Source: Blautia sp. (GTDB taxonomy: Bacteria; Bacillota; Clostridia; Lachnospirales; Lachnospiraceae). Taken from it: a stretch of DNA of 13,695 nt. Both the position numbers and the translations under genes were made by a program. The notes under the pieces are model-generated. The model was not told where the DNA came from. It saw only the letters and a list, made by a program, of their open reading frames with translations, and searched no databases. This document shows, piece by piece, positions 1 through 13,695 of the stretch; within the stretch, counting starts at the first letter, position 1; the number at the start of each line of letters is the position of its first letter. The stretch spans positions 1 to 13,695 of the forward strand of contig JAFOJB010000405.1 in assembly GCA_017420455.1 (NCBI GenBank), read 5' to 3'.

Positions 1-1422
1 ATCCGCTTTATCGAGCAGGGTGATTATGCGTCTGCCAACGCTACCGTACGCGAGAAGGTGCCGTTCCCGCACAGCCTGGGCTATATCTGCGTCCACAGCT
101 GTGAGCTGGAGTGCAAGCATCAGTATCTGAATGAGCCTGTCTCTATCCGCAACCTGAAGAGATTTGCGGCGGAGCATGACGACGGAGCGTGGAAGGAAAA
201 AGCGTTCCATAAACCCGCAACGGGCAAGAAGATCGCTGTTGTCGGCGGAGGCCCCTCCGGACTTACAGCAGCCTACTTCGGAGCGAAGCTCGGACATTCT
301 GTGACTGTTTTTGAGAGCAGCGAGAAGCTTGGCGGACAGCTGCGTTATGGAATCCCCTCCTACCGTCTGCCCAGAGAGACTCTGGACAAGGAGATCCAGG
401 ATATCCTGGAGACCGGAGATATCACCGTGAAGACCGGAGTGAAGGTCGAGAACGTGCCCGCTCTTCTGAAGGAAGGCTTTGACGCTGTCTATGTGGCAGT
501 GGGAACCCATCAGGGAGCCAGGCTTCCGCTTCCGGGGAACGACCTGGAAGGAGTTCAGGTCAACACCGATTTCCTCCGTGCTTTTGAAGAGGGTACAGCC
601 AGCGTTGGCGAAAAGGTAGTCATCCTCGGCGGCGGGAATGTAGCCATCGACTGCGCAGGCGCTGCATTCCGCCTTGGCGCAAAGAGTGTGAATATGGCAT
701 GTCTGGAGGCTTATGACGCCATGACCGCTACCGATGAGGAGCGTGCCTGGGCGGAGGAGGAAGGAGTCGTCCTTCACAACTCCAAGACCTTCCCCCAGAT
801 CCTGGGTGAGAACGGTCACTGCACCGGTGTGGAGATCCAGAGTGTCGGAAACTTCCGCAAGGAAAACGGACGTATGGTATTCGACAAGATCGAGGGGACG
901 AATGAGATCCTTCCCGCGGATACCGTCATTTTCGCTACCGGACAGCGTCCCACCATCCCCATGGATCCGGAGGTCTTCGGTCTGGAGCTGACCCATGGAA
1001 ACTATGTAGCCGCGACGGGCGAAAACGGTGAGACCTCCATAGAGGGAATCTATGCCGGCGGTGATTCCAGCACCGGAACCACCTCCGTGATCAGGGGAAT
1101 CGAAGGCGCCAGAAAGGCCATTTCCGCCATCGACAGATATCTGGGCGGCGACGGAAACATCGATGAGAAGCTGGCACCGGAACAGGAAAAGGATCCCTGG
1201 ATCGGAAGTATCGAAGGTTTCGCAGGTATCCCGAGGACAGAGCCGAATGTGGTACCGGTACCGAAAAGAGTGGTGGAATGGAAGACCTGCGGCCCCATGG
1301 ACAATGGTTTCGACGAGGAAAAGGCAAAATGTGAAGCAGGAAGATGTCTCCAGTGCGATCTGAGACTCTGTATTTCCAGTCCGAAAACCTGGTCTGATTT
1401 TGCAAAGGAGGGTGAAGGCTGA
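1..1422 (+). CDS. GltD-like FAD/NAD(P)-dependent oxidoreductase, 5' partial
   Basis: The reading frame is open from base 1, so the gene starts before the window; the GTG at 58 lies inside the conserved N-terminal domain and is not the start. The first residues carry the end of the GltD/dihydropyrimidine-dehydrogenase-type Fe-S domain, with cysteines in GYICVHSCELECK (about 85-120). A dinucleotide fold with VVGGGPSG (about 238-261) would bind FAD. A second fold with VILGGGNVAIDCA (about 622-660) would bind NAD(P)H. IYAGGDSSTGTTS near 1050-1085 is the closing flavin motif. The C-terminus has another cysteine group, EAGRCLQCDLRLC. Known members pass electrons between NAD(P)H and iron-sulfur partners. 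It overlaps the next gene in TGATG, so the two products probably form a complex. The physiological acceptor is unknown, and the missing 5' part could add further domains. Confidence 0.9.
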   Translation: MRFIEQGDYASANATVREKVPFPHSLGYICVHSCELECKHQYLNEPVSIRNLKRFAAEHDDGAWKEKAFHKPATGKKIAVVGGGPSGLTAAYFGAKLGHSVTVFESSEKLGGQLRYGIPSYRLPRETLDKEIQDILETGDITVKTGVKVENVPALLKEGFDAVYVAVGTHQGARLPLPGNDLEGVQVNTDFLRAFEEGTASVGEKVVILGGGNVAIDCAGAAFRLGAKSVNMACLEAYDAMTATDEERAWAEEEGVVLHNSKTFPQILGENGHCTGVEIQSVGNFRKENGRMVFDKIEGTNEILPADTVIFATGQRPTIPMDPEVFGLELTHGNYVAATGENGETSIEGIYAGGDSSTGTTSVIRGIEGARKAISAIDRYLGGDGNIDEKLAPEQEKDPWIGSIEGFAGIPRTEPNVVPVPKRVVEWKTCGPMDNGFDEEKAKCEAGRCLQCDLRLCISSPKTWSDFAKEGEG

Positions 1423-2606
1423 TGACAGCATTCGAGAGTGCAAAAGAAATGGGCTATGTCGCTCTGGTGGAGAAGATCAATGCGGTTTCCCTGATGGAAT
1501 ACGGCCTTTGCCCGGAGCTTTTCATGGACAGGGTTTTCCGTGCCAACGAGAATCCTGAGAAGCCCTTTGTCTATGCAGGGCTGAACAATGCGGATGTGGA
1601 TCTGGCATTGCTTGAGCTCCTTTCAAAGGATCCGGAAAAGATATTCGACGGGATCGATATCGCGGGAATGCTCACAGATGCCGGCGCGAAATTCCTGTAT
1701 CTTCCGGTGAACTGCACCGCGCTTGCAGATGAACTGCGCAATAAGGCTGGAGCGCATGGCATTATCCTGGTAAATGACATCATTAATGTGCGGGAGACGG
1801 AGAAGGACCTGATCCTCCATATCGTAACTGCCTGTGACCTGGCGGACCTTGCATTGGGGACCTACGAGGCCGGCGTTTATGTAAAGACAGGAGAGGAGCC
1901 TCTTAAGAAGGTTCCGGCGGATACCCCGGTTTCGGATCTTGTGTCCCTTGACGGCGCCAAAGCCGTATATCTGGGATATCGTCTGTATACTCCCGAGGAA
2001 GCAAAGGCTCTGACGGCGAAGGATGCCAGCAGCGCTCTGATCCGGGTACTGACAGAAAAGGACTGTATCGTGGATGAAACCGCCAGGCGGCTTCTTCTGG
2101 ACCGGACAGCCAGCTGCGGCAAATGCGTATTCTGCCGCGAGGGACTCATCCAGCTGGAGTATATGCAGAAAGAGATCACCCAGGGCAGAGGAAAAGCGGA
2201 ATATATTGACCTCACCCAGGAAATCGGAAGTGTTATGGGGGATTCTACCCTTTGTACGGTAGGACAGGTTTCTGCGGATATTCCTCTGGACGCCATCGCG
2301 AAATTCCGCGGCGAATATGATTCTCATATCAAGAAAAATCAGTGTCCTGCGGGAGTGTGTACTTCCTTCGTACATATTTATATCGATCCCCAGACATGTA
2401 CCGGCTGTGGGGACTGCCTGGATGTATGTCCGGCTGACTGCATCGAAGGAAAGCCGAAATTCATCCATATGATCGATGAGTTCGACTGTACGAAGTGCGG
2501 TAAATGTATCGAGGCCTGCGAGGAAGGCGCAGTGCAGCAGACCTCGGGCAAGCTTCCGAAGCTTCCTGACAGATTGACGAAGGTTGGAAAATTCAAGAAA
2601 CACTGA
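1422..2606 (+). CDS. NuoF C-terminal-like iron-sulfur protein with 2[4Fe-4S] ferredoxin domain
   Basis: This 394-residue protein begins at an ATG overlapping the previous stop. The first 130 residues are poorly conserved by eye. A SLBB-like stretch may lie around residues 150-190. Residues about 225-310 match the NuoF/HydB cluster domain: CGKCVFCREG followed by STLCTVGQ gives the CxxCxxC...C set for one [4Fe-4S]. The tail has CTGCGDCLDVCPADC and CTKCGKCIEACEEGA, two ferredoxin-type [4Fe-4S] sites. I do not see the glycine-rich FMN/NADH motif (GRGGAGFPTG type) of true NuoF, so it is probably an electron relay that depends on the adjacent flavoprotein. Likely role: carrying electrons between NAD(P)H/FAD and ferredoxin or a redox enzyme encoded outside the window. 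It is cytoplasmic, with no signal or membrane segment. Family call is firm; partner and direction are inferred. Confidence 0.88.
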   Translation: MTAFESAKEMGYVALVEKINAVSLMEYGLCPELFMDRVFRANENPEKPFVYAGLNNADVDLALLELLSKDPEKIFDGIDIAGMLTDAGAKFLYLPVNCTALADELRNKAGAHGIILVNDIINVRETEKDLILHIVTACDLADLALGTYEAGVYVKTGEEPLKKVPADTPVSDLVSLDGAKAVYLGYRLYTPEEAKALTAKDASSALIRVLTEKDCIVDETARRLLLDRTASCGKCVFCREGLIQLEYMQKEITQGRGKAEYIDLTQEIGSVMGDSTLCTVGQVSADIPLDAIAKFRGEYDSHIKKNQCPAGVCTSFVHIYIDPQTCTGCGDCLDVCPADCIEGKPKFIHMIDEFDCTKCGKCIEACEEGAVQQTSGKLPKLPDRLTKVGKFKKH

Positions 2607-2638: not shown

Positions 2639-3742
2639 ATGGGAAAACTACGCGTGGGTATCGTAGGCTGCGGCGGGATCGCCACCCAGAAGCATATGCC
2701 GTCCCTCAGGGCAAATGCGGATCTCAATGAGATTACGGCATTCTGCGATATTCTGGAGGAGCGTGCAGTAAAGGCAAAGGCGGATTTTGGCACGCCGGAC
2801 GCAAAGGTGTATACGGATTATCATGACCTGGTAAACGATCCCGATGTGGACGTGGTCCATGTCTGCACCCCCAATGTAGCTCATTGCCCCATCACGGTCT
2901 CTGCTTTGGAAGCCGGCAGGCATGTCATGTGCGAGAAACCCATGGCGCATACCGCGGCGGACGCGCAGAAGATGATCGATGCCTGGAAAAAATCCGGGAA
3001 GAAATTCACCATCGGATATCAGAACCGTCTGCGCGACGATACGCAGACCCTGCATGCGTCCTGCGAAGCAGGAGAGCTTGGAGAGATATATTTTGCGAAA
3101 GCCCATGCCCTTCGAAGAAGAGCAGTTCCTACCTGGGGGGTATTCCTGAACAAGGAGCTGCAGGGAGGGGGGCCGCTGATCGATATCGGAACCCATGCTC
3201 TGGACATTACTCTGTGGATGATGAACAATTATGAACCCCTCTCCGTATCAGGCCAGGTTTTTTATAAGCTGGGACGGCTGAAGGACACTCCTGCAGGAAA
3301 CGTTTTTGGTTCCTGGGATCCGGAGACCTATGAAGTAGAGGACTCTGCCTTTGGCCTGATCAAGATGAAAAACGGAGCGGTCATTTACCTGGAGGCTTCC
3401 TGGGCGCTGAATATCCTGAAATCCATAGAAGCCTCCACGACCCTCTGCGGCACCAGGGCAGGCGCCGAGCTGCACCACGGCGGCAGCTATCCGAAGGATG
3501 AGCTGATCTACAATACCGTAGAGCACAACCAGCTGATGGAAAAGACTGTTTCCCCGGGAGGAGCCGTGGATTTCTTCAAGGGCAGCGTGCCTGCAGAAAG
3601 TGTACGCGAGCAGAGACAGTGGCTGGAAGCGATCCTGAACGATACAGAGCCGCTGGTGAAACCGGAGCAGGCGTTTGTAGTTACCCAGATCCTGGAAGGC
3701 ATCTACAAATCCGCGGAAACCGGGAAAGAAGTATTCTTCTGA
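2639..3742 (+). CDS. Gfo/Idh/MocA family oxidoreductase
   Basis: This 367-residue protein starts at an ATG preceded by AAGGAGG at the right distance. The N-terminal Rossmann fold shows GIVGCGGIATQKH (residues about 7-19) for NAD(P). The family EKP motif is at about 99-101, with the lysine expected in catalysis. The C-terminal domain has GGGPLIDIGTHALD (176-189), supplying the Asp/His pair usual in this family. Length is normal. Members oxidise or reduce a sugar, inositol or glycoside hydroxyl, often at C3 of a hexose or of an inositol ring; substrate cannot be read from sequence. A TIM-barrel isomerase and a ROK kinase further along the cluster support a sugar-like substrate. The 3' end, including the TGA stop, is repeated in tandem three times directly after the gene. 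It lies 32 bp after the iron-sulfur gene and is probably co-transcribed. Confidence 0.92.
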   Translation: MGKLRVGIVGCGGIATQKHMPSLRANADLNEITAFCDILEERAVKAKADFGTPDAKVYTDYHDLVNDPDVDVVHVCTPNVAHCPITVSALEAGRHVMCEKPMAHTAADAQKMIDAWKKSGKKFTIGYQNRLRDDTQTLHASCEAGELGEIYFAKAHALRRRAVPTWGVFLNKELQGGGPLIDIGTHALDITLWMMNNYEPLSVSGQVFYKLGRLKDTPAGNVFGSWDPETYEVEDSAFGLIKMKNGAVIYLEASWALNILKSIEASTTLCGTRAGAELHHGGSYPKDELIYNTVEHNQLMEKTVSPGGAVDFFKGSVPAESVREQRQWLEAILNDTEPLVKPEQAFVVTQILEGIYKSAETGKEVFF

Positions 3743-3775
3743 TGAAGTATTCTTCTGATGAAGTATTCTTCTGAT
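3728..3775 (+). repeat. Three perfect tandem copies of a 16-bp unit covering the Gfo/Idh stop
   Basis: The unit GAAGTATTCTTCTGAT occurs at 3728-3743, 3744-3759 and 3760-3775 with no mismatch. The first copy is the last codons and TGA stop (3740-3742) of the dehydrogenase gene; the others lie in the 73-bp gap before the thiolase gene. The 16-bp period is not a multiple of three, so the copies do not extend the protein in frame. Perfect identity points to recent slippage or to a locus variable in copy number. Confidence 0.95.
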
Positions 3776-3815: not shown

Positions 3816-5111
3816 ATGGTAAAACTTGGAAAGTATGCAAGGAGCGTTTCCATCATTGGCGTGGGCTGCACTCCCTTCATGTACACGGTGGATAATCCGG
3901 AAACAGACGGCCTTACCGAGGGCGAACTGTTCGGATACGCAGCGCTCCAGGCGATGGAGGACGCCGGTGTAAATCCTCAGGATGTGGATTATTATTTCCA
4001 TGGCGAGGCGAGCCCCTTAAACGGCTCCAATTATCTGACCCCCAATGTCCAGATCGCAAACTGGTTCGGAATGAAGGGCAAGGGTTCGATCCATCATTCC
4101 GAGGCCTGCTGTACCGGATATCTGGCAATTGAGCAGGCAGTAAATGCGGTAGCGTCCGGAAAATACAACTGTGTCCTGTCCGGCTGCGTCGAGTTCGGCG
4201 ACAGCCTGGCCATCGGAAACCATCCCTATAAGAGGGAAAAAATGACCATGGACAAGTTCCTTGTGACCACAGCCTGGCTGTATGACAGAAATTACACCAG
4301 AAGCCTGATGGCCGGCCAGGAGCTGATCTATGACGATGCGGCAGAATGGTATAAGCGTACCCGCGGCATCACAGACCAGGAGATGGATGATACCCTGAAC
4401 TGGATGTGCATCAACAACCGCCGGAACGCTTCCGTGAACCCGCTGGCGATCGAGAGAAGGACCTATGAACAGCTTGCAAAGGAAGCGGGCTTCGAGAACG
4501 TGATGGACTATATGAGAAGTCCGCACAACCCGAAGATGGGAGATTTCCTCCGCCTGGGCGGCGTCGAGCTGAAGTGCGACGGCGCGGCAGCTGTGGTGGT
4601 ATGCGCCACGGAGCTTGTGGATAAATATATGGGCAACAAGAGCCATAAACCGATAGAAGTTCTTGGCGTCGGAAGCGCAGCCTGCGAGGCGACTACGCCC
4701 CACTTCGAAGTGCGTGCCACAGAAGAGGCAGTACGCCAGGTTTATGAACTGACCGGACTTTCCGGAGAGGACCTGGATCTGTTCTTTGCCAACGACTTCA
4801 TCATCACCTCCCACCTCGTATCCGCAGAGATCGCCGGATACCTTCCCTACGGAGAAGGCTGGAAGTATATCTGCGAAGGAAGGACCGCCTATGACGGCGA
4901 CCGTCCCATCAATACCAACGGAGGAAGAACATCCTTCGGCCACGCCCATGCGGCTTCCGGTCTTGCAGACCTCTACGAGGCTGTCAAACAGATGCGCGGC
5001 GAATGCGGCGAACGCCAGGTGAAAAAACTTCCGAAGACAACGATGCTGCGGGGCTATGGCGGCGCACAGAACGTTGCTGCCTACATCATCAGAACCATCG
5101 AGGAGGGTTGA
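3816..5111 (+). CDS. SCP2-type thiolase-like acyltransferase
   Basis: This 431-residue protein starts at an ATG behind GTGGAGG (3803-3809). The nucleophile region reads SEACCTGYLAI; by alignment to ACxSG the active cysteine should be Cys98, with a second cysteine beside it. The C-terminal NTNGGRTSFGHAHAASG (about 366-382) is the GHP-type motif with His376. The third motif, NEAF or HDCF in relatives, reads ANDF (325-328), and the C-terminal CxG is replaced by RGYGGAQN, so acid/base chemistry may differ from acetoacetyl-CoA thiolase. Relatives that need a DUF35 partner include the archaeal acetyl-CoA thiolase/HMG-CoA synthase complex and PhlC of the PhlACB acyltransferase. The DUF35 gene follows after 2 bp, so a similar complex is likely here. 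Probable activity: thioester-dependent formation or cleavage of a C-C bond. Substrate unknown. Confidence 0.9.
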   Translation: MVKLGKYARSVSIIGVGCTPFMYTVDNPETDGLTEGELFGYAALQAMEDAGVNPQDVDYYFHGEASPLNGSNYLTPNVQIANWFGMKGKGSIHHSEACCTGYLAIEQAVNAVASGKYNCVLSGCVEFGDSLAIGNHPYKREKMTMDKFLVTTAWLYDRNYTRSLMAGQELIYDDAAEWYKRTRGITDQEMDDTLNWMCINNRRNASVNPLAIERRTYEQLAKEAGFENVMDYMRSPHNPKMGDFLRLGGVELKCDGAAAVVVCATELVDKYMGNKSHKPIEVLGVGSAACEATTPHFEVRATEEAVRQVYELTGLSGEDLDLFFANDFIITSHLVSAEIAGYLPYGEGWKYICEGRTAYDGDRPINTNGGRTSFGHAHAASGLADLYEAVKQMRGECGERQVKKLPKTTMLRGYGGAQNVAAYIIRTIEEG

Positions 5112-5113
5112 AC

Positions 5114-5527
5114 ATGAGTGTGAAGCTGGAAAAAGTAGTACAGAAGTTTTATGACAGCCTGGAAGAAGGCAAGATCATGGGCAGAAAATGCACCAAATGC
5201 GGCGCCATGGAGTTTCCTCCCGTCTACGCCTGCAACAGCTGCGGCTGTACAGACCTTGAGTGGACCGAGATCAGCGGAAAGGCAAAGATGCATTCCATCG
5301 TCATGCCTGCAGCCCTTTCCTCCAAACCGGAATACAAGGCGCTTGGCCAGTATGCCTACGGAGAGGTAGAGCTGGAGGAAGGAAGCCGTCTGAACGCGGT
5401 AGTCCGCGGCATTTCCAGGAAGAAGAGAAAAGAACTGCTGGACAAGCTTCCTGTCAGCTGCCACGCCGCCATTTATCAGAGAGACGGCTATAAGACCGTG
5501 GTATTCGACCTGGATGAAGACCAGTAA
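5114..5527 (+). CDS. Zn-ribbon/OB-fold (DUF35) protein, thiolase partner
   Basis: This 137-residue protein has its ATG at 5114, 2 bp after the thiolase stop and just behind GAGGAGGG at the end of that gene. A longer frame starting at 5003 would lie inside the thiolase gene and lacks such a site. An N-terminal helix is followed by a rubredoxin-like zinc ribbon with Cys26, Cys29, Cys40 and Cys43 (RKCTKCGAMEFPP...CNSCG), then a beta-rich OB-fold from about residue 48 onward. This is the standard layout and length of the family. In known complexes (archaeal thiolase/HMG-CoA synthase, PhlB in PhlACB) the protein holds the assembly together and helps bind CoA or position substrate. The tight coupling implies balanced production with the thiolase-like enzyme. 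The tail is acidic (DLDEDQ). Confidence 0.93.
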   Translation: MSVKLEKVVQKFYDSLEEGKIMGRKCTKCGAMEFPPVYACNSCGCTDLEWTEISGKAKMHSIVMPAALSSKPEYKALGQYAYGEVELEEGSRLNAVVRGISRKKRKELLDKLPVSCHAAIYQRDGYKTVVFDLDEDQ

Positions 5528-5583
5528 AGTTCCGGGAAGCTTCCCCGCCCTGGCGCACAGGGATATATAGAGCAGTCCCGCAG

Positions 5584-5611
5584 CCGGTCCTTCCTCCGGA
5601 AGGAAGACCGG
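5584..5611 (+). other. GC-rich hairpin in the DUF35-ACP gap
   Basis: CCGGTCCTTCC (5584-5594) can pair with the right arm GGAAGGAAGACCGG (5598-5611), giving an 11-bp stem with a 3-base bulge and a 3-base loop. No T-run follows (GCGCAGATAATAATAAC), so it does not look like a normal terminator. A 12-bp perfect palindrome, GGGAAGCTTCCC, lies at 5534-5545. The 202-bp gap (5528-5729) has no supported gene; it may hold an RNA-processing or stabilising structure separating the thiolase/DUF35 genes from the ACP/Pta genes. Confidence 0.45.
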
Positions 5612-5729
5612 CCGCGCAGATAATAATAACATGATTTCAGGGCAGAAGGACCGCCTGGCGGATGTCTGGCAAAATGGTGTCTTTCTGCACCGGAATCAGA
5701 AAGCACAGATCGAGAAAGGAACAGAAAAA

Positions 5730-5969
5730 ATGGATAGAGCAGAGCTTGAGAAGAAACTGATTGAGTGTGTAGCAATTGCATACAGCAAGGACGCGGCATC
5801 CCTTACCCTGGATACCAGCTTCAAGAATGATCTTGGCGGAGCATCCGTACAGATGGTCGGCCTTGTATCCCAGCTGGAGAATGAGCTGGACGTATTTATC
5901 CAGCTGGCAGACGCTGCTGCCTGCGAAACCATCAAAGACCTTGTAGATAAAGTGGAGGCTGAGCTGTAA
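5730..5969 (+). CDS. Stand-alone acyl carrier protein with non-standard attachment motif
   Basis: The start chosen is the ATG at 5730, behind AAAGGA (5715-5720); it gives 79 residues, the usual ACP length. An in-frame ATG at 5631 has no ribosome binding site and would add 33 residues unlike any ACP. The protein is acidic and helical. The attachment-site region reads DLGGASVQMVGLVSQLENEL; Ser39 sits where ACPs carry phosphopantetheine, but the usual DSL is ASV. The helix after it (VGLVSQLENELDV) and the end (ACETIKDLVDKVEAEL) fit the ACP fold. It overlaps the Pta-like gene in TAATG, so the two are translationally coupled. Inferred role: carrying an acyl group between the thiolase-like enzyme and the phosphate acyltransferase. 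It is not placed among fatty-acid synthesis genes, so it is probably a dedicated carrier. Confidence 0.85.
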   Translation: MDRAELEKKLIECVAIAYSKDAASLTLDTSFKNDLGGASVQMVGLVSQLENELDVFIQLADAAACETIKDLVDKVEAEL

Positions 5970-6973
5970 TGAGCGTACTGGATCCCATTTATGCCGTTGC
6001 GAAGGAAAATCTGCAGAAGGTTGCGTTCCCGGAAGCGACCAACGAAAAAATGATGCAGGCTGCCTATGAGACAGGGAAGGAAGGCTACATTATTCCTGTT
6101 CTGGTAGGAGATACCGCACAGAATAAAGCCCTCGCCGCCGAGAGAGGGTATGATGAGTCGGTATTTACTTTCGTGGACATCCACGATGAAGAATACAAAA
6201 GCAAGGTGATCGCCGCCTATGTGGCGAAGCCCGGCACCATGCTGAAGGAAAAAGCCATGTCCCGCCGTATGGAGAACCCGCTGTATTTCGCCATGGCCAT
6301 GCAGGCCGTGGGGGAAGCGGACGTTACCTTTGCGGGAATTGACAATACCACCGGGGATGTACTCCTGGCAGGCCAGATGATCATCGGCCTGAAACCCGGC
6401 ATCACCACCGTATCCAGCATCGGTCTTGCGGATATTCCCGGGTTCCAGGGTTCCGAAGGGACCCTTCTCGCCGTGGGAGACAGCGCGGTATGCACCAATC
6501 CCAATGCAGAGCAGCTGGCCAGCATCGCCATCTCTGCCTGCGATACCGTGAAGGAGCTCCTGGACTGGGAGCCCAGATGCGCCATGGTCTGCTATTCCAC
6601 ACTGGGAAGCGGGCAGGGCGAGCTGATCGACAAGGTGAAGGAAGCGCTCCGCATCGCAAATGAGAAGCGCCCGGATCTTGCCATCGACGGGGAATTCCAG
6701 CTGGATGCCGCTATCGTTCCCGCTGTTGCCGCCAAGAAGGTAAACAGAGAGAGCAAGGTGGCCGGCAAGGCCAATGTACTCATCTGGCCGGATCTGAACG
6801 TGGGAAATGTGGCAGTGAAGCTGATCCAGCAGTTCGGCCACGCAGATGCCTACGGCCCCATGCTTCAGGGCTTCAACAGCATTGTCTGCGACTGCTCCAG
6901 AGGGGCGCCGGTGTCCGAGATCAAGGGAAATATCGTCATGTCTGCAGTCCGCGCGGCAAGAAGCAAAAAATAA
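5969..6973 (+). CDS. Phosphate acyltransferase, Pta/Ptb family
   Basis: This 334-residue protein starts at an ATG overlapping the ACP stop. It has the full phosphotransacetylase pattern: YSTLGSG near 209-215, DGEFQLDAA at 240-248, VAGKANVLIWPDLNVGN at 264-280, and CDCSRG with Ser310/Arg311 matching the catalytic Ser-Arg of known Pta enzymes. Length matches the short, single-domain class. The reaction is acyl-CoA + Pi to acyl phosphate + CoA. The Tyr-Lys after the GN motif of common Pta enzymes is Val-Lys here, and the canonical PVNDLSRG reads IVCDCSRG, so the acyl pocket may differ from acetate. Butyrate kinase comes next in the cluster, suggesting an acyl chain of about C3-C5, as for Ptb. 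Coupling to an ACP gene raises the possibility that acyl-ACP is the donor; that is inference. Confidence 0.9.
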   Translation: MSVLDPIYAVAKENLQKVAFPEATNEKMMQAAYETGKEGYIIPVLVGDTAQNKALAAERGYDESVFTFVDIHDEEYKSKVIAAYVAKPGTMLKEKAMSRRMENPLYFAMAMQAVGEADVTFAGIDNTTGDVLLAGQMIIGLKPGITTVSSIGLADIPGFQGSEGTLLAVGDSAVCTNPNAEQLASIAISACDTVKELLDWEPRCAMVCYSTLGSGQGELIDKVKEALRIANEKRPDLAIDGEFQLDAAIVPAVAAKKVNRESKVAGKANVLIWPDLNVGNVAVKLIQQFGHADAYGPMLQGFNSIVCDCSRGAPVSEIKGNIVMSAVRAARSKK

Positions 6974-7001
6974 GAGCTGAGCAAATATTCCAGAAAGCTG
7001 C

Positions 7002-7051
7002 AAAGAGCTGCCTTTTCAGGGCAATGTGTCCCCGGAGCGGGCAGCTCTTTT
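7002..7051 (+). terminator. Probable intrinsic terminator or attenuator between pta-like gene and buk
   Basis: AAAGAGCTGCC (7002-7012) pairs perfectly with GGCAGCTCTTT (7040-7050), an 11-bp stem; the T-rich stretch TTTTACCATTTTTG follows. The loop is long (27 bases) and contains a smaller GGG/CCC pairing. This may end or reduce transcription after the acyltransferase gene, leaving buk weaker or on its own promoter. The long loop lowers certainty. Confidence 0.6.
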
Positions 7052-7105
7052 ACCATTTTTGTCTGTTTGTGTATTTTTCTGACAGAAAACAGGAAAGGAT
7101 ATCAA

Positions 7106-8215
7106 ATGAGTGAATATAAGATTCTGACCATCAATCCCGGCTCAACGTCCACGAAGATCGCCATTTTTGAAGGAACCAGGGAGATCCTGGGGAAAAATGT
7201 TTCTCACGATGCCTCCGAACTTGCGAAATATAAAGAGGTCATCGACCAGCTTCCTTACAGAAAGCAGATGATCGAGGAGTGCATCAAGGAAAGCGGCGTA
7301 GATTTTAAGGAACTGTCCGCAGTTGTAGGACGCGGCGGCGGCCTTTGCGCTGTGGAAGGCGGGGTGTACAAGATGGGTGAGATCCTGCTGGACCACGCGC
7401 ACCGTGGTGCCAACGGCATCCAGCATCCGGCAATGCTGGGACCGGGGCTTGCGAAGGAATTCGCAGATCTGGCCGGCTGCCCCGCCTTTGTCGTAAACCC
7501 GCCTGATACCGATGAGCTGCAGCCCGTCGCCCGTATGACCGGAATCAAAGGCGTGTACCGGAATGTGCATCTGCATGCCCTGAACCTGAAGGAGACAGCC
7601 ATCCAGCACTCCAAAAAGAATGGGAAGAAATACGAGGAATGCAACTATGTCGTCTGCCATATCGGCGGCGGAATTTCCATTTCTGCCCATGAAAAGGGCC
7701 GGATGATCGATGGAAATGACATTGTAGGAGGCGAAGGTCCCATGGCTCCCACACGCTGTGGTGCTGTTCCCGCTCTGGAAATGATAAATTACTGCTTTTC
7801 CGGCGTGACGCAGAAGGAGGCGATAGCTCTCTGCCAGAAGACCGGCGGCTTTGTAAGCCATCTCGGCACCTCCGATGCCATCGAAGTCAGCAATCGGGCC
7901 GCAGCCGGGGAGAAGGTGCCGAAGCTGGTCTGGGAGACCATGATCTACCAGATCATCAAGGAGATCGGCGCCATGGCAGCTGCCCTTCACGGAAAGGTAG
8001 ACGGAATCCTTCTTGGCGGCGGCATGGTCCACAACAAGGAACTGGTTCAGAAGATCACGGAGGCCTGCTCTTTCATCGCTCCTGTGACAGCCTATCCGGG
8101 AGAATTCGAGATGGAGGCCATGGCGGCCGGAGCGACCCGTGTTTTGAATGGTGAAGAGACGGCGAAAGAATATACAGGAAAGCCCCTCTGGGACAAGGCG
8201 GATTTTGAGGAATGA
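7106..8215 (+). CDS. buk: Butyrate kinase
   Basis: The start is the ATG at 7106 behind AGGAAAGG (7091-7098); an earlier in-frame start at 7067 would add 13 residues without a good site. The 369-residue protein is a little longer than typical Buk (about 355). ASKHA-fold motifs are plain: INPGSTSTKIAIF (9-21, phosphate 1), HIGGGISISAHEKGRMIDG (185-203, with the arginine and aspartate), EGPMAPTRCGAVP (210-222), SHLGTSDAIEV (251-261) and ILLGGGMVHN (301-310, adenosine). The reaction is acyl phosphate + ADP to carboxylate + ATP, run with the phosphate acyltransferase encoded before it. Buk enzymes often accept butyrate, isobutyrate, valerate and related acids, so the true substrate here is open. 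Classic butyrate-synthesis genes are not in the window, so the acyl group probably comes from the local thiolase/ACP system. Confidence 0.95.
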   Translation: MSEYKILTINPGSTSTKIAIFEGTREILGKNVSHDASELAKYKEVIDQLPYRKQMIEECIKESGVDFKELSAVVGRGGGLCAVEGGVYKMGEILLDHAHRGANGIQHPAMLGPGLAKEFADLAGCPAFVVNPPDTDELQPVARMTGIKGVYRNVHLHALNLKETAIQHSKKNGKKYEECNYVVCHIGGGISISAHEKGRMIDGNDIVGGEGPMAPTRCGAVPALEMINYCFSGVTQKEAIALCQKTGGFVSHLGTSDAIEVSNRAAAGEKVPKLVWETMIYQIIKEIGAMAAALHGKVDGILLGGGMVHNKELVQKITEACSFIAPVTAYPGEFEMEAMAAGATRVLNGEETAKEYTGKPLWDKADFEE

Positions 8216-8354: not shown

Positions 8355-9269
8355 ATGAAATTCGGTCTTTTAACCGCCATATGTGAAGGGATGACCTTCG
8401 AAGAAGTGGTAGATTTTGCGGCAGAAAACGGTCTGGAGTGCCTGGAGGTTGCCTGCTGGCCTGCGGCCGGGGCAAAGAGACGCTACGCAGGCGTAAGCCA
8501 TATTGATGCGGCGAATCTTACCGAAGAAAAGGCAAAGGAGATCAATGACCTCTGCAAGGCGAAAGGCGTCGAGATTTCGTCCCTTGCCTACTACCCCAAT
8601 ACGCTGGATCCGGATCTGGAAAAGAGGGCCGGATATGTGGCCCATATCATGAAGCTGATCGATGCTTCCGCCATGCTCGGCGTAAACATGGTCACGACCT
8701 TCATCGGCCGTGTCAGCACCAGAACCTTTACAGAGAACCTCGAGATCGCGAAAGAGGTATGGACGCCGATCCTGCGGCACGCAGAGGAAAAGGGAGTGCG
8801 GATCGCCATCGAAAACTGCCCCATGTGGTTCACAGACGACGAGTGGCCCGGCGGACAGAATATCATGACGACTCCCGCAAACTGGAGAAAGGTATTTGAG
8901 GTTCTTGACAGCCCCAATCTGGGGATCAACTACGATCCCTCGCATTTTGTCTGGCAGCAGATCGACTATATCAGGCCGATTTACGAGTTCAGGGACAAAA
9001 TATTCCATGTCCCTTACAAGGATATCAAGGTCTACAGGGACAGACTGGCAGATGTGGGCGTGATGGCGAATCCGCTCCAGTATATGACCCCGAAGATCCC
9101 GGGCCTTGGCGATGTGGACTGGGGCAGGTATGTATCCGCCCTTACAGACATCGGCTATAAAGGCTGCAGTGTCATAGAGGTAGAGGATAAGGCTTTCGAG
9201 GACTCGTTGGAGAGCGCGAAGAAGGCAATCCTGCAGAGCGCAAGATATCTCCGCAATTTCGTCAGCTGA
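8355..9269 (+). CDS. TIM-barrel sugar (phosphate) isomerase/epimerase family protein
   Basis: This 304-residue protein starts at an ATG behind AAAAGGAG. It fits the xylose-isomerase-like TIM barrel (AP endonuclease family 2). Expected divalent-metal ligands can be placed: Glu153 in IAIENCPM, Asp194 and His197 in NYDPSHF, His218 in IFHVPYKD, and Glu275/Glu277 in VIEVED. GLGDVDWGRYVSAL (250-263) is a family hallmark before the last strands. Members include inosose dehydratase (IolE), hydroxypyruvate isomerase, 3-keto-sugar epimerases such as YcjR, and the catalytic subunit of C-glycoside-deglycosylating enzymes; sequence alone does not decide among them. With the Gfo/Idh dehydrogenase in the same cluster, a keto-sugar or keto-cyclitol substrate is likely. 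The gene for a small beta subunit, as in C-deglycosylases, is not present in the window. Confidence 0.88.
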   Translation: MKFGLLTAICEGMTFEEVVDFAAENGLECLEVACWPAAGAKRRYAGVSHIDAANLTEEKAKEINDLCKAKGVEISSLAYYPNTLDPDLEKRAGYVAHIMKLIDASAMLGVNMVTTFIGRVSTRTFTENLEIAKEVWTPILRHAEEKGVRIAIENCPMWFTDDEWPGGQNIMTTPANWRKVFEVLDSPNLGINYDPSHFVWQQIDYIRPIYEFRDKIFHVPYKDIKVYRDRLADVGVMANPLQYMTPKIPGLGDVDWGRYVSALTDIGYKGCSVIEVEDKAFEDSLESAKKAILQSARYLRNFVS

Positions 9270-9347
9270 GCAGGACAGCACGTTGCAGTAAATGGTATGC
9301 CTGCACGGCATTTATGCGGGTGCAAGAGAAGAAAGGTCGAAAACTAT

Positions 9348-10283
9348 ATGAAACCATATGCATTTGGAGTGGATATCGGCGGGACCACCGTAAAGATCGG
9401 GCTCTTTAAGACCGATGGAACACTTCTGGAAAAATGGGAGATCCCCACACGTACCGAGGACGGCGGCAGCGGGATCCTTCCGGACATCAAGGACGCGGTA
9501 CTTGGGAAGATCGAGGAAAAGAAACTGGACATCAAGGATTTTGAAGGCATCGGAATGGGGGTTCCGGGACCGGTTTCTCCGGATGGTACAGTACTGAAGT
9601 GCGTCAACCTGGGCTGGGGCGTTTTCAATGTGGAGGATCAGCTCTCCGAACTGACCGGCCTCAAGGTGAAAGCCGGAAATGACGCCAATGTGGCGGCTCT
9701 CGGCGAAATGTGGCAGGGCGGCGGCAAGGGCTTCAAGAACATGGTCATGGTCACGCTGGGAACGGGCGTCGGCGGAGGAATCATTCTGGACGAGCGTATT
9801 CTTGCCGGCGTGAACGGCGCTGCCGGCGAGATCGGCCATATGACCATGAGAGACGATGAGACGGATAAATGCGGCTGCGGCAAAAAGGGCTGTCTGGAAC
9901 AGTACGCGTCGGCCACCGGTATTGTCCGGGTCACGAAAAAATATCTCAAGGCACATCCCGAGGAGGAGACCTGCCTGAAGGAGAGCGGCCTGACATCGAA
10001 GGATATTTTTGACGCCGCGAAGGCGGGGGACAAGGTAGCGCTGCTTATGGTGGAGGAGCTGGGAGATATGCTTGGGAAAGCGACGGCTTCCGTCGCCTGC
10101 GTGGTCAACCCGGAAGCCTTCGTCATCGGAGGCGGCGTTGCCAGGGCAGGCCAGATCCTTCTGGATTCCGTGGCAGAGCATTTCCCGAAATACTGTTTCC
10201 ACGCCTGCAAAAACACGACCTTCCGTCTTGCCCAGCTGGGCAACGACGCAGGAATCTTCGGCGGCGTGCGTCTGGTGCTGTGA
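9348..10283 (+). CDS. glcK: ROK family sugar kinase, glucokinase-like
   Basis: The start chosen is the ATG at 9348 (MKPYAFGVDIGGTT), giving 311 residues, the family length; AGAAAGG lies about 12 bases before it. An ATG at 9297 would add 17 residues rich in Cys and Arg and is unlikely. The N-terminus has DIGGTTVKIGLF for ATP phosphate. GNDANVAALGE (111-120) holds the catalytic Asp112. GTGVGGGI (138-145) is a further phosphate motif. EIGHMTM (His164) and CGCGKKGCLEQYAS (Cys175, Cys177, Cys182) form the structural zinc site. The pattern matches Firmicute ROK glucokinases, so phosphorylation of glucose or a related hexose at O6 is likely. No DNA-binding helix-turn-helix precedes the kinase fold, so it is not a ROK repressor. 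In this cluster it could trap a hexose released by the dehydrogenase/isomerase pair. The symbol is at family level. Confidence 0.9.
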   Translation: MKPYAFGVDIGGTTVKIGLFKTDGTLLEKWEIPTRTEDGGSGILPDIKDAVLGKIEEKKLDIKDFEGIGMGVPGPVSPDGTVLKCVNLGWGVFNVEDQLSELTGLKVKAGNDANVAALGEMWQGGGKGFKNMVMVTLGTGVGGGIILDERILAGVNGAAGEIGHMTMRDDETDKCGCGKKGCLEQYASATGIVRVTKKYLKAHPEEETCLKESGLTSKDIFDAAKAGDKVALLMVEELGDMLGKATASVACVVNPEAFVIGGGVARAGQILLDSVAEHFPKYCFHACKNTTFRLAQLGNDAGIFGGVRLVL

Positions 10284-10552: not shown

Positions 10553-11572
10553 TTGAAAGAGATCAGGACTGTGGATGCGGCGGGTCATGTGCTTTGCCAT
10601 GATATGACGCAGATCATACCGGGGGAGTTTAAAGGCGCGCGTTTCCGGAAGGGGCATATTGTACAGGAGGAGGATATCCCTGTGCTTCTGTCCATGGGGA
10701 AGGAAACACTGTTTGTCTGGGAGAGGACGCCGGGTATGCTTCATGAGGATGAGGCGGCAGAGAGGCTCCGGGCCTTAAGCCAGGGACAGAATATGCACGC
10801 CACAGAACCGAAGGAAGGGAAAATTGAACTGATCGCGGACTGTGACGGGCTGTTTACAGTGGATGTGGAAAGGCTTTATCAGGTCAATTCCATAGAGGAG
10901 CTGATGATCGCCACACGGCATACCGCTGTTCCTGTGAAAAAGGGAGATAAGCTGGCAGGAATGCGGGTGATCCCTCTTGTCATCGGGGAGGAAAAGCTCA
11001 GGGAGGCAGAGGCGGCATGCGGCTCTGAACCGCTTATGCAGGTACTGCCTTACCGCTGCCGCAGGGCGGGGCTTGTGACTACCGGCGGCGAGGTGGCAAA
11101 GGGGCTGATCACAGATAAATTCACTCCTGTCATCATTGAGAAGCTGAAGGAATATGGGATTGAGGTCACCTGCCGCTGCACTCCCGGGGACGACAGGGGG
11201 GAGATCGCAGCCGCGGTGAAGGCTTACCATGAGGCAGGGGTGGACATGATCCTCTGCACCGGTGGAATGAGCGTGGACCCGGACGACCGTACGCCTGGCG
11301 CTATACGGGATACCGGGGTGCGGATCGTGACTTACGGAGCGCCGGTACTGCCGGGTGCCATGTTCCTGCTGGGCTATTTTGAAGACGGCGTTCCCGTGAT
11401 GGGACTGCCGGGCTGCGTCATGTACGCGAAAAGAACCATATTTGATCTGGTACTGCCCCGCATTGCCGCAGGTCTCCCCATCACCCGCCCGGAGCTGATG
11501 AAAATGGGACACGGAGGATTGTGCCTCGGATGTGAAAGCTGCACATTTCCGAACTGCGGATTTGGCAGATAA
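10553..11572 (+). CDS. MoeA-like molybdopterin-binding protein with cysteine-rich C-terminus
   Basis: This 339-residue protein uses a TTG start supported by a strong site. Residues about 172-305 form the MoCF (MoeA/MogA-type) fold: AGLVTTGGEV at 172-181, TPGDDRGEIAAAV, and the cofactor-binding ILCTGGMSVDPDD at 233-245, followed by YGAPVLPGAMF and VMGLPGCVMY. The N-terminal half lacks the full MoeA domain order, so it is probably not the standard MoeA. The last residues, CLGCESCTFPNCGFGR, are a compact four-cysteine group that could bind a metal or Fe-S cluster. Relatives occur in clostridia near molybdenum hydroxylase genes. Probable role: molybdenum cofactor handling or insertion. The gene converges on moaC, another cofactor gene. 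The exact reaction cannot be told from sequence. Confidence 0.85.
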   Translation: MKEIRTVDAAGHVLCHDMTQIIPGEFKGARFRKGHIVQEEDIPVLLSMGKETLFVWERTPGMLHEDEAAERLRALSQGQNMHATEPKEGKIELIADCDGLFTVDVERLYQVNSIEELMIATRHTAVPVKKGDKLAGMRVIPLVIGEEKLREAEAACGSEPLMQVLPYRCRRAGLVTTGGEVAKGLITDKFTPVIIEKLKEYGIEVTCRCTPGDDRGEIAAAVKAYHEAGVDMILCTGGMSVDPDDRTPGAIRDTGVRIVTYGAPVLPGAMFLLGYFEDGVPVMGLPGCVMYAKRTIFDLVLPRIAAGLPITRPELMKMGHGGLCLGCESCTFPNCGFGR

Positions 11573-11583
11573 AACACTACAGG

Positions 11584-11628
11584 AAAAAAGAGAAAACGGG
11601 GACGGTGAGGAACCGTCCCCGTTTTCTC
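11584..11628 (-). terminator. Perfect 17-bp stem terminator between the MoeA-like gene and moaC
   Basis: GAGAAAACGGGGACGGT (11590-11606) pairs perfectly with ACCGTCCCCGTTTTCTC (11612-11628) around a 5-base loop. Read on the - strand it overlaps the moaC stop by 2 bases and is followed by six T (11589-11584), a classical intrinsic terminator. It may also slow transcription from the MoeA-like gene. Its core matches the REP-like sequence at 10381. Confidence 0.85.
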
Positions 11629-12124
11629 AGAAGGAAACATCTGGAGGGAGTTCCGGGTTATAGAAATCCCCGCTTTTGCCGCCGTGCTTTTCCCGGAGAT
11701 GGATTTCCCTGATGACCATGTGTCTGTCGATGGCCTTGCACATATCGTAGATGGTAAGGAGGGCAGTGGAAACGCCGGTCAGGGCTTCCATCTCCACGCC
11801 GGTCTTCCCTTCGGTCTTCACGGTGCAGACTGCCCGGATCCGGCAGGCTTCCGGGAGCAGCTCGAAGGTCAGAGAGGCATGGGTAAGGTTCAGAAGATGA
11901 CACATGGGGATCAGGTCCTGGGTGCGCTTGCAGCCCATGATGCCTGCCACCTGAGCGACTGTCAGCACATCCCCCTTTTTTACGGTTTTATCCCTGATCG
12001 CCTCGAAAACCTCCCGGTTTACCTCCAGGATGCCCTCGGCCACTGCAGTCCGGGAGGTGATTTCTTTTTCAGACACATCAACCATGCGTGCGTTCCCCTG
12101 CTGGTCAAAATGCGTAAGCTCCAT
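11627..12124 (-). CDS. moaC: Cyclic pyranopterin monophosphate synthase
   Basis: This 165-residue protein is of normal MoaC length. Its ATG is at 12124-12122 with AAAGGGG upstream on the - strand. Conserved blocks in order: KKGDVLTVAQVAGIMGCKRT (49-68), DLIPMCHLLNLT (70-81) with Cys75-His76, KTGVEMEALTGVSTALLTIY (107-126), DMCKAID (127-133) with a lysine matching the active-site lysine, and HGGKSGDF (147-154). MoaC acts with MoaA in the first step of molybdenum cofactor synthesis, rearranging 3',8-cyclo-GTP to cyclic pyranopterin monophosphate in the cytoplasm. Its neighbours are the convergent MoeA-like gene and pepT upstream on the same strand. No terminator is evident between pepT and moaC, so they may share a transcript. 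Just upstream, CTTTCT and AGAAAG (12135-12150) could form a small hairpin near the ribosome binding site. Confidence 0.96.
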   Translation of the reverse strand: MELTHFDQQGNARMVDVSEKEITSRTAVAEGILEVNREVFEAIRDKTVKKGDVLTVAQVAGIMGCKRTQDLIPMCHLLNLTHASLTFELLPEACRIRAVCTVKTEGKTGVEMEALTGVSTALLTIYDMCKAIDRHMVIREIHLREKHGGKSGDFYNPELPPDVSF

Positions 12125-12210: not shown

Positions 12211-12408
12211 AGTTCGCTGCATTGCCGGATCAGGCCAGGGATGCCCCATGATGCCTTCTCCGGAACCTCTCTTCACAGTTCGCTGTATTGCCGGATCAGG
12301 CCAGGGATGCCCCGTGATGCCTTCTCCGGATTCTCTCTTTATAGTTCACTGTATTTCCGGACAAGACCAAGGATGATCCGGGATGCCTTCTCCAGACCCT
12401 CTGCGGTA
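12211..12408 (-). repeat. Three tandem 66-bp copies of the pepT 3' end, each with its own stop
   Basis: Units lie at 12211-12276, 12277-12342 and 12343-12408 with an exact 66-bp (22-codon) period. The third is the authentic end of pepT (TAA at 12341-12339). Read on in frame past that stop, the second unit encodes PEKASRGIPGLIRQYSEL then TGA, and the first PEKASWGIPGLIRQCSEL then TGA; the real tail is LEKASRIILGLVRKYSEL. By hand count units 1 and 2 differ at about 6 of 66 bases, units 2 and 3 at about 18. These fill most of the 214-bp pepT-moaC gap; 12125-12210 shows only two small hairpins and no gene. Confidence 0.92.
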
Positions 12409-13559
12409 ATGTGCTCGTAAGGGCCGTGATAGGCGTAACCACCGGTACCGAGATTGGGACAGGGAAGACCGCGATAGGAGAGTCTGGCGCCATCTGTGCC
12501 GCCCCGCACCGGCAGGACGGCAGGTTCCAAATCCAGGGAACGGATCACGGCCTTTGCGTTTTCGATCAGATGCATACAGGGCTCGATCTTTTCCTTCATG
12601 TTGCGGTATTGTTCCCGGATGGTGAGGGTCACGCAGCCTTCGCCCCACCGCTCGTTCATGATTTTTTCTATGTGGCGGAGCATTTCCAGGCGGGCTTCAA
12701 AATGGGGGAAGCTGTGATCCCGGATAATATAGGAAAGCCTGGCCTTCTCCACGGTTCCGGAAAGCTCTGTCAGGTGGAAGAAGCCTTCATAGCCCTCCGT
12801 ATCCCTGGGCGTTTCCGCCTCCGGGAGCATGGCGTTTATCCGGCAGGCCAGAAGAGCGGCATTGATCATCTTATCCTTCGAATCTCCCGGGTGGATATTG
12901 AAGCCCCGGATCTCGAAAACAGCGGCAGCGGCATTGAAGTTCTCATATTCGATCTCGTTTTCCGCCCCTCCATCCACAGTATAGGCGTATTTCGCCCCAA
13001 ACAGAGGAAGATCGAGGTCCTCGGCGCCGCCTCCGATTTCTTCATCCGGAGTGAAGCCGATGCAGATTCTGCCATGGGGGATATCCCCTGCCATGATTTC
13101 CTGTACTGCCGTCATGATAGCCGCTATCCCTGCTTTATCATCCGCGCCGAGCAGGGTGGTGCCGTCGGTGGTGATCAGAGTACGGCCCTTCAGTGACTTA
13201 AGGTGCGGGAACTGCCTTACAGAAAGCGTAAGGCCGCTTTCCCCGAGAGGCACGTCCTCTCCGTCATAGTTCTCGTGGACCAGGGGATGGACGTTTTCAC
13301 CGCAAAAATCCGGAGCAGTGTCCAGGTGGGCCAGAAAGCCCAGAGCAGGCGCTTTTTCGCAGCCCGCGGATGCCGGAACCGATCCATAGACATAGCATTT
13401 TTCATCTACGCGGGCATCCGCAATGCCCAGCTCCTTCATCTCCTTCACAAGGAGCCTGGCCAGGTCGAACTGGCGGGAAGTGGACGGGACTGTCCCCGTT
13501 TCTTCATCGCTGGTGGTATAGATCTTTACGTAATTTAACAGACGTTCATATGCTTTCAT
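12339..13559 (-). CDS. pepT: Peptidase T (tripeptide aminopeptidase), M20 family
   Basis: This 406-residue protein is of normal PepT length, with its ATG at 13559-13557 behind GGGAGAAGG on the - strand. The frame is open upstream to 13661, but those 34 residues have no ribosome binding site and include the likely promoter. Metal and catalytic residues of M20B peptidases are placed as follows: His78 and Asp80 in AHLDTAPD, Asp140 in LGADDKAGIA, Glu173-Glu174 in TPDEEIGG, Asp196 in TVDGG, and His378 in YHGPYEH. The inserted dimer domain carries GFNIHPGDSKDKMINAA (219-235). The enzyme is a cytoplasmic two-metal exopeptidase that removes the N-terminal residue of tripeptides. The 3' end has been copied twice in tandem behind the stop. 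Codon use matches the rest of the window. Confidence 0.96.
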   Translation of the reverse strand: MKAYERLLNYVKIYTTSDEETGTVPSTSRQFDLARLLVKEMKELGIADARVDEKCYVYGSVPASAGCEKAPALGFLAHLDTAPDFCGENVHPLVHENYDGEDVPLGESGLTLSVRQFPHLKSLKGRTLITTDGTTLLGADDKAGIAAIMTAVQEIMAGDIPHGRICIGFTPDEEIGGGAEDLDLPLFGAKYAYTVDGGAENEIEYENFNAAAAVFEIRGFNIHPGDSKDKMINAALLACRINAMLPEAETPRDTEGYEGFFHLTELSGTVEKARLSYIIRDHSFPHFEARLEMLRHIEKIMNERWGEGCVTLTIREQYRNMKEKIEPCMHLIENAKAVIRSLDLEPAVLPVRGGTDGARLSYRGLPCPNLGTGGYAYHGPYEHITAEGLEKASRIILGLVRKYSEL

Positions 13560-13626
13560 TTTCCTTCTCCCGGTATTGTGATTTAAAGAATACTTTGTCT
13601 TTTGCTGAAGCTTCCGGACAGCATAT

Positions 13627-13655
13627 ACGATATCATAAAAAAACATGGATTGCAA
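13627..13655 (-). promoter_or_regulatory. Candidate pepT promoter
   Basis: On the - strand TTGCAA (13655-13650) and TATCGT (13632-13627) are separated by 17 bases, about 70 bases before the pepT start. An inverted repeat, GGATTGCA/TGCAGTCC (13647-13654 and 13661-13668), overlaps the -35 box and could be an operator or, with the T-run after it on the - strand, the terminator of an upstream gene. Both boxes are imperfect. Confidence 0.4.
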
Positions 13656-13695
13656 ACACATGCAGTCCCCAGACGGTGAGACCGTGAACTGTAAC

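Follow-up and report, generated by a model that had tools for sequence, protein, structure and literature searches.

The window examined here, a 13,695-nucleotide stretch of DNA from Blautia sp. (contig JAFOJB010000405.1), is a complete contig of a 3.1-Mb metagenome-assembled genome (MAG) that is 78% complete. Within it, five genes follow one another on one strand and encode an SCP2-type thiolase, a DUF35/ChsH2-type zinc-ribbon protein, a stand-alone acyl carrier protein (ACP), an acyltransferase resembling Pta and a butyrate kinase, Buk (Table 1). The original prediction, made from the DNA letters alone, had named these genes in this order and read them as a route that takes acyl groups from thiolase cleavage, by way of the ACP and an acyl phosphate, to ATP. 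Mechanical calling of open reading frames (ORFs) and annotation with Pfam and NCBIfam confirmed all five. The tight spacing also claimed holds for two pairs: the gap between thiolase and DUF35 genes is 2 bp and the ACP stop codon overlaps the Pta gene by 1 bp, with looser joints between DUF35 and ACP (202 bp) and between Pta and Buk (132 bp). As stated there too, genes for classic butyrate formation are absent among the annotated window genes, a search that did not extend to the whole genome.

The five genes belong together as a real set. Genome contigs were scanned with a nine-row thiolase alignment, yielding 287 relatives, and the best 80 (79-90% identity, some sharing one genome) were kept; with the window they make 81 loci, many cut by contig ends, and the profiles used to annotate them were derived from the loci themselves. 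Most come from Lachnospiraceae, Oscillospiraceae or unplaced Clostridia, and named genera among them include Butyrivibrio, Pseudobutyrivibrio, Schaedlerella, Mediterraneibacter and Floccifex. Schaedlerella arabinosiphila DSM 106076 and Pseudobutyrivibrio xylanivorans MZ8 are examples of carriers in culture. Where at least 5 kb is available on either side of the thiolase gene (44 loci, window included), DUF35, ACP and Pta genes occur within 9 kb in 44/44 and Buk lies within 9 kb of the thiolase in 41/44, being missing in L049, L078 and L098. Across all 81 loci the counts are 73 for DUF35, 74 for ACP, 69 for Pta and 65 for Buk, with the complete set at 56. The genes that the original prediction had grouped are found together elsewhere, then, in a variable order: among adjacent pairs, 14 have Buk directly ahead of the thiolase and 44 have it directly behind Pta. 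One locus (L025:5185-11979) carries two thiolase/DUF35/ACP trios, their thiolases 55% and 89% identical to that of the window, flanking a single Buk-Pta pair.

The set is patchily distributed. Within the genus, the thiolase is present in 8 of 37 genomes including the window's; the search overall gave 11 of 61, three of which are weak matches outside the genus. When 348 genomes of the family were searched with Pta (E 1e-70) and thiolase (E 1e-90), 13 had both the cluster-type Pta and the thiolase, five Pta alone, one thiolase alone and 329 neither. The Fisher value for this co-occurrence is 8e-19, uncorrected for kinship and only a guide because the genomes are related. Recurrence of the same thiolase neighbours across genomes, together with this co-occurrence, places the association beyond chance. 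Of the five genomes with Pta but no thiolase, G570, G604, G623 and G740 each carry an ACP, Buk and a CocE-type hydrolase in the surrounding stretch, and in the fifth (G629) the Pta sits at a contig edge. In the genome where only the thiolase was found (G683), two Ptas, an ACP and Buk lie close by.

The window Pta falls below both relevant NCBIfam equivalog cut-offs, that for Pta (TIGR00651, 250.3 bits against 311.2) and that for Ptb (TIGR02706, 63.6 bits against 410.5). All 17 genomes searched, reached through named records, have an ordinary Pta of 378-420 bits and, with lower scores, one or more Ptas of the cluster kind; the cluster protein is a dedicated paralogue. A quick tree, which omits 20 of 137 rows (19 second fetches and L138, a distinct gene that is the second cluster Pta of G073), places the cluster Ptas in one clade apart from the housekeeping Ptas, with a support of 80.

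Two of the positions that differ correspond to CoA contacts. In the numbering of the Porphyromonas gingivalis enzyme (PgPta), the D-x-S-R motif formed by D309, S311 and R312, whose catalytic roles have been described (PMC6461089), is kept in 109 of 109 cluster Pta rows, repeat fetches of the same genes included. R89 and R135 of PgPta touch the 3'- and beta-phosphates of acetyl-CoA (PMC6461089), and their counterparts in MaeB, R581 and R535, contact the same phosphates, mutation of R535 abolishing acetyl-CoA binding (PMC7902834). Ordinary Ptas have Arg at both positions (18/18). In the cluster rows the R133/135 column holds Arg or Lys in 0/109, and the R87/89 column holds Arg in 0/109 and Lys in one. 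Could the cluster Pta be a sensor or regulator, a role suggested for the Pta domain in hybrid malic enzymes? Pta domains can drop catalysis and sense acetyl-CoA (PMC7902834), but here it is the catalytic residues that are retained throughout and the main CoA contacts that are gone, which makes this explanation very improbable.

Several points weigh against the carrier-protein reading, and the first four of them favour a rival explanation: an ordinary CoA-based Pta-Buk fermentation in which the ACP is a helper of the thiolase or a bystander. Eight Ptb-like proteins, drawn from these genomes and belonging to a family of CoA users, are also without the R87 loop, and their R133 column holds no Arg; by eye, they carry Lys or Arg one column off R133. 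PgPta also binds the 3'-phosphate through Lys92 (PMC6461089), and the column of this third, minor contact is basic in 46 of the 109 cluster rows (43 Arg, 3 Lys), its placement being unsure because the loop carries a deletion. Replacing the two arginines of PgPta cost only 58% and 21% of activity (PMC6461089), so that their loss leaves CoA use possible. In genome G683, the thiolase/DUF35/ACP set at L166 adjoins two Ptas that the tree puts with the housekeeping ones (support 84). Beyond these four, the support for the cluster clade is modest, and the window's own MAG holds no other family match to Pta or Buk, so the pair may serve a general role there; nor was a homologue of the FAD_binding_2 protein that often neighbours the set found in that incomplete MAG. 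L166 itself has two thiolases, two DUF35 proteins, an ACP with a DSL motif and Buk beside its two Ptas, and is possibly a CoA-using or intermediate form. Set against CoA-based fermentation are the separate ordinary Pta in every one of the 17 genomes and the complete absence of Arg from the two main positions, as well as the behaviour of the ACP described below; it is quite unlikely.

The carrier follows the acyltransferase closely. The window ACP clears the Pfam PP-binding cut-off (36.6 bits against 20.8) and stays under the NCBIfam ACP models (46.3 bits at best, cut-off 66). The canonical ACP motif is DSL; its Asp is replaced in the window protein (LGGASVQM) and the attachment Ser is kept, as it is in all 94 ACP rows, where the preceding residue is Ala in 89, Thr in three and Ser in two (these rows, too, include repeat fetches). 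An ACP gene lies no more than 1.5 kb from the Pta gene for 58 of 61 cluster Ptas, the exceptions being L060 and L025, with the ACP at least 2 kb off, and L036, where it is fused to a hydrolase. A thiolase-type ACP profile, of ungauged sensitivity to ordinary ACPs, found none near housekeeping Ptas (0/18). No ACP-Pta fusion was seen among the best 120 of 3794 Pta homologues. As to enzymes for arming the carrier, 8 of the 81 loci have an AcpS-like gene nearby and 7 an Sfp-like gene, and the window's MAG has a gene of the phosphopantetheinyl transferase family.

Of the putative cleavage enzymes, the thiolase has Cys98 and His376 invariant in 9/9 rows (their roles assigned by eye after aligning it with thiolases of solved structure). 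Residues 12-99 of the DUF35 protein match chain 6esq_E (Pfam DUF35) and zf-ChsH2 scores over its cut-off; no OB-fold family of Pfam was matched at E 0.001. PhlC, from the same thiolase group, makes and breaks C-acyl bonds without CoA, and its crystal contains an acetylated Cys88 (PMC6392133). In relatives of the window the link between cleavage and carrier can be covalent: seven DUF35 proteins of 257-364 aa, from six loci in five genomes, carry ACP at the C-terminal end, as tandem domains in two cases. Three of the fusions, from L157, L160 and L162, were compared with Pfam: PP-binding clears the cut-off in each, and zf-ChsH2 does so in L160 and L162 and falls slightly short in L157.

A second architecture dispenses with the thiolase altogether. 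At eight loci (L136, L150, L151, L152, L153, L154, L155 and L036; L137 looks like the contig of L154) a CocE/NonD-type alpha/beta-hydrolase with its own ACP replaces thiolase and DUF35 beside a Pta of the same clade, and Buk is present in seven of the eight, being absent from L154. The hydrolase is some 6 kb from the ACP in L150. In L036:3782-5932 (minus strand) ACP and hydrolase form one protein, upstream of a divergent Pta and Buk; 98% of this fusion is covered by 18 homologue clusters, three of the seven inspected having tandem ACPs, and the L036 Pta, searched under a strict threshold (E 1e-75) in 391 genomes across the class, matched only in the window's genome. The hydrolase-type ACPs score weakly or not at all with Pfam, and a profile of eight of them finds solved ACPs at 3.7e-10, with the Ser in register. 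Hydrolase and thiolase loci have upstream partners in common: L150 and L152 contain FAD, GltD and NuoF-type genes, and L151 contains FAD, FMN_red, DUF1097 and MFS genes. The cluster-Pta clade occurs with at least two ACP-linked enzymes, of which the thiolase-DUF35 pair is one, a point that the original prediction missed. That the ACP stays with Pta where the cleavage enzyme is swapped, and fuses to cleavage enzymes, argues against a carrier that is bystander to a CoA-based fermentation. A wider proposal would be that gut anaerobes have a general, modular kind of substrate-level phosphorylation: cleavage enzymes unrelated to one another (thiolase-DUF35, DUF35-ACP fusions and CocE/NonD-type alpha/beta-hydrolases) would load a catabolic ACP, from which a CoA-blind Pta clade would form acyl phosphate for Buk to make ATP. 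Taken as one joint claim, this is tentative, with a little short of an even chance of holding.

How might the parts work together? In the proposed sequence, upstream flavin and Fe-S oxidoreductases (GltD, the NuoF-like protein and, in relatives, the FAD_binding_2 protein) would ready the substrate, and the thiolase with its zinc-ribbon partner would cut a ketone that has not been activated, with a 1,3-dicarbonyl or an acylated phenol as the likeliest candidates. Cleavage of a C-C (or C-X) bond would leave the acyl group on the thiolase Cys, or on the hydrolase Ser, from which it would move to the phosphopantetheine arm of the ACP. The divergent Pta would then exchange ACP for phosphate, and Buk would turn the acyl phosphate into ATP and free acid. 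An energy-conserving acyl-ACP pathway of this kind is narrowly favoured on the sequence evidence. The original prediction's account of acyl groups passing from ACP to ATP thus stands in part: conservation of the set, the unbroken attachment Ser, the Arg losses of Pta and the fusions of ACP to cleavage enzymes all point that way, and ACP as the substrate of Pta, the catabolic direction, C-C cleavage and the class of substrate are proposed on the strength of these signs.

The direction of flow is where the main rival, ATP-driven acylation, comes in. Buk would spend ATP on a free acid, Pta would load ACP, and the thiolase-DUF35 pair or the hydrolase would C- or O-acylate a product. Both the Pta step and the kinase step can run in reverse. 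PpATase (PhlACB) forms C-acyl bonds (PMC6392133), and the Buk/Ptb pair of Listeria activates an external acid (PMC10026030). The neighbours of the set, however, look catabolic: PucR-type regulators, MFS transporters and MBL-fold and CocE-type hydrolases, and an [FeFe]-hydrogenase-like protein in a locus with a DUF35-ACP fusion. These are indirect signs, and with them the reverse chain is unlikely.

The proposed energy-conserving pathway resembles several known systems in part. Like Pta-AckA and Ptb-Buk, it pairs a Pta-fold acyltransferase with an acyl kinase to draw ATP from an acyl thioester; unlike them, it apparently has a dedicated ACP as carrier, has lost the main CoA-phosphate arginines and exists alongside an ordinary Pta elsewhere in the genome (17/17). 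An SCP2-type thiolase with its Cys and His kept and a DUF35 partner recall PpATase/PhlACB and the archaeal thiolase-DUF35-HMG-CoA synthase complex, but the PhlA subunit gene and the HMG-CoA synthase subunit are both absent among the annotated window genes, and here the pair is linked to ACP, Pta and Buk genes. In citrate lyase and malonate decarboxylase, too, a small acyl carrier protein serves catabolism, as it would in the proposed pathway; their carrier has a different prosthetic group and they are not known to make ATP via acyl phosphate, and the window ACP best matches general ACP models, below whose cut-offs it falls. PlsX makes acyl phosphate from acyl-ACP and phosphate, for lipid synthesis, and belongs to a family other than Pta, whereas the sole Pfam match of the window Pta is PTA_PTB. 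The anaerobic phloroglucinol pathway of Clostridium scatologenes also joins retro-Claisen cleavage to terminal acetate and butyrate kinases, but employs a CoA-transferase and an acetoacetyl-CoA thiolase, and 'acyl carrier' occurs 0 times in the main text (PMC10470551).

No title or abstract in the literature searched, whose coverage leaves out most subscription journals and preprints, describes an ACP-Pta-Buk set; every family is known and the combination is apparently undescribed. In the standard view, acyl-CoA is the source from which fermenters gain ATP, by the action of Pta and a kinase. If the pathway is as proposed, an ACP in the place of CoA would provide a separate energy-saving channel, shielded from the CoA pool and present in many rumen and gut Clostridia, by which ATP could be extracted from the cleavage of compounds never activated with CoA. 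A function would also be found for proteins to which automatic annotation would give ordinary names (thiolase, phosphate acetyltransferase, CocE/NonD hydrolase, ACP), and gut substrates would be there to discover.

Which substrates might these be? Among the annotated window genes there is neither an acyl-CoA synthetase nor a CoA-transferase. An acyl-phloroglucinol or flavonoid is unsupported, since the phloretin/DAPG hydrolase (PF18089) occurs in just 1 of 20 genomes, the search having covered this enzyme and not the rest of the pathway. GH106-like genes lie near 3/81 loci, and a 937-aa protein of L019, considered as a rhamnosidase, has no Pfam match. With Gfo genes near 10 and TIM-barrel genes near 5 of the 81 loci, an inositol or C-glycoside is unsupported as well, and so is a fumarate-like acid: by eye, the FAD protein seems to be without the Arg and His residues of fumarate reductase. 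The best matches of an OYE protein at L077 are 2,4-dienoyl-CoA reductase and a chain labelled 'NCR', which we take to be naphthoyl-CoA reductase; these do not settle the substrate.

Table 1. Annotated features of the window (positions in nucleotides).
Feature	Position	Strand	Remarks
GltD-like NAD(P)/FAD oxidoreductase	1-1422	+	5' end cut at contig end
NuoF C-terminal Fe-S domain and [4Fe-4S] ferredoxin domains	1422-2606	+	NADH_4Fe-4S 1.5e-17
Gfo/Idh/MocA oxidoreductase	2639-3742	+	Peripheral (10/81 loci)
SCP2-type thiolase	3816-5111	+	Thiolase_C_1 9.5e-29 (Pfam)
DUF35/ChsH2-type zinc-ribbon protein	5114-5527	+	C-x2-C ... C-x2-C; zf-ChsH2 5.4e-7 (Pfam)
Stand-alone acyl carrier protein, 79 aa	5730-5969	+	PP-binding 5.5e-9 (Pfam); motif LGGASVQM
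Pta-like acyltransferase	5969-6973	+	PTA_PTB 1.1e-85 (Pfam)
Butyrate kinase (Buk)	7106-8215	+	TIGR02707 402 bits, cut-off 289.1
AP_endonuc_2 TIM-barrel protein, IolE-like	8355-9269	+	Peripheral (5/81 loci)
ROK-family sugar kinase	9345-10283	+	Peripheral
MoCF-domain protein	10553-11572	+	Pfam; link to set not seen
MoaC-like ORF (presumed)	11627-12124	-	Flanks set; link to set not seen
PepT-like peptidase (presumed)	12339-13661	-	Flanks set; link to set not seen

The set often lies in a neighbourhood longer than the five genes, which was overlooked by the original prediction; it includes a FAD protein, NuoG/GltD and NuoF/ferredoxin proteins, a PucR-type regulator, DUF1097 and an MFS transporter. 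Near the 81 loci GltD and NuoF-like genes are each found at 34, the FAD_binding_2 protein at 26, FMN reductase at 25, DUF1097 at 36, PucR-type regulators at 28, MFS transporters at 16 and MBL-fold proteins at 11. The GltD-like part, truncated in the window, sits in relatives within a protein of about 700 aa that combines NuoG-N and GltD, and its gene overlaps the NuoF-like gene by 1 bp. The FAD protein is closest to chains of fumarate reductase, ketosteroid dehydrogenase and urocanate reductase, and in one three-locus cluster, a single sequence of which was inspected, it is apparently fused with the NuoF-like protein. Beside thiolase, DUF35-ACP fusion, Pta and Buk, L160:10475-13994 (minus strand) encodes an [FeFe]-hydrogenase-like protein and a Succ_DH_flav_C FAD protein, a content that would fit H2-linked oxidation as one possibility; because both proteins are there, the redox step may go in either direction. 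Immediately upstream of the set, at 3728-3775 of the window, a 16-bp unit, gaagtattcttctgat, stands in three tandem copies that run from the last part of the Gfo gene into the spacer preceding the thiolase gene.

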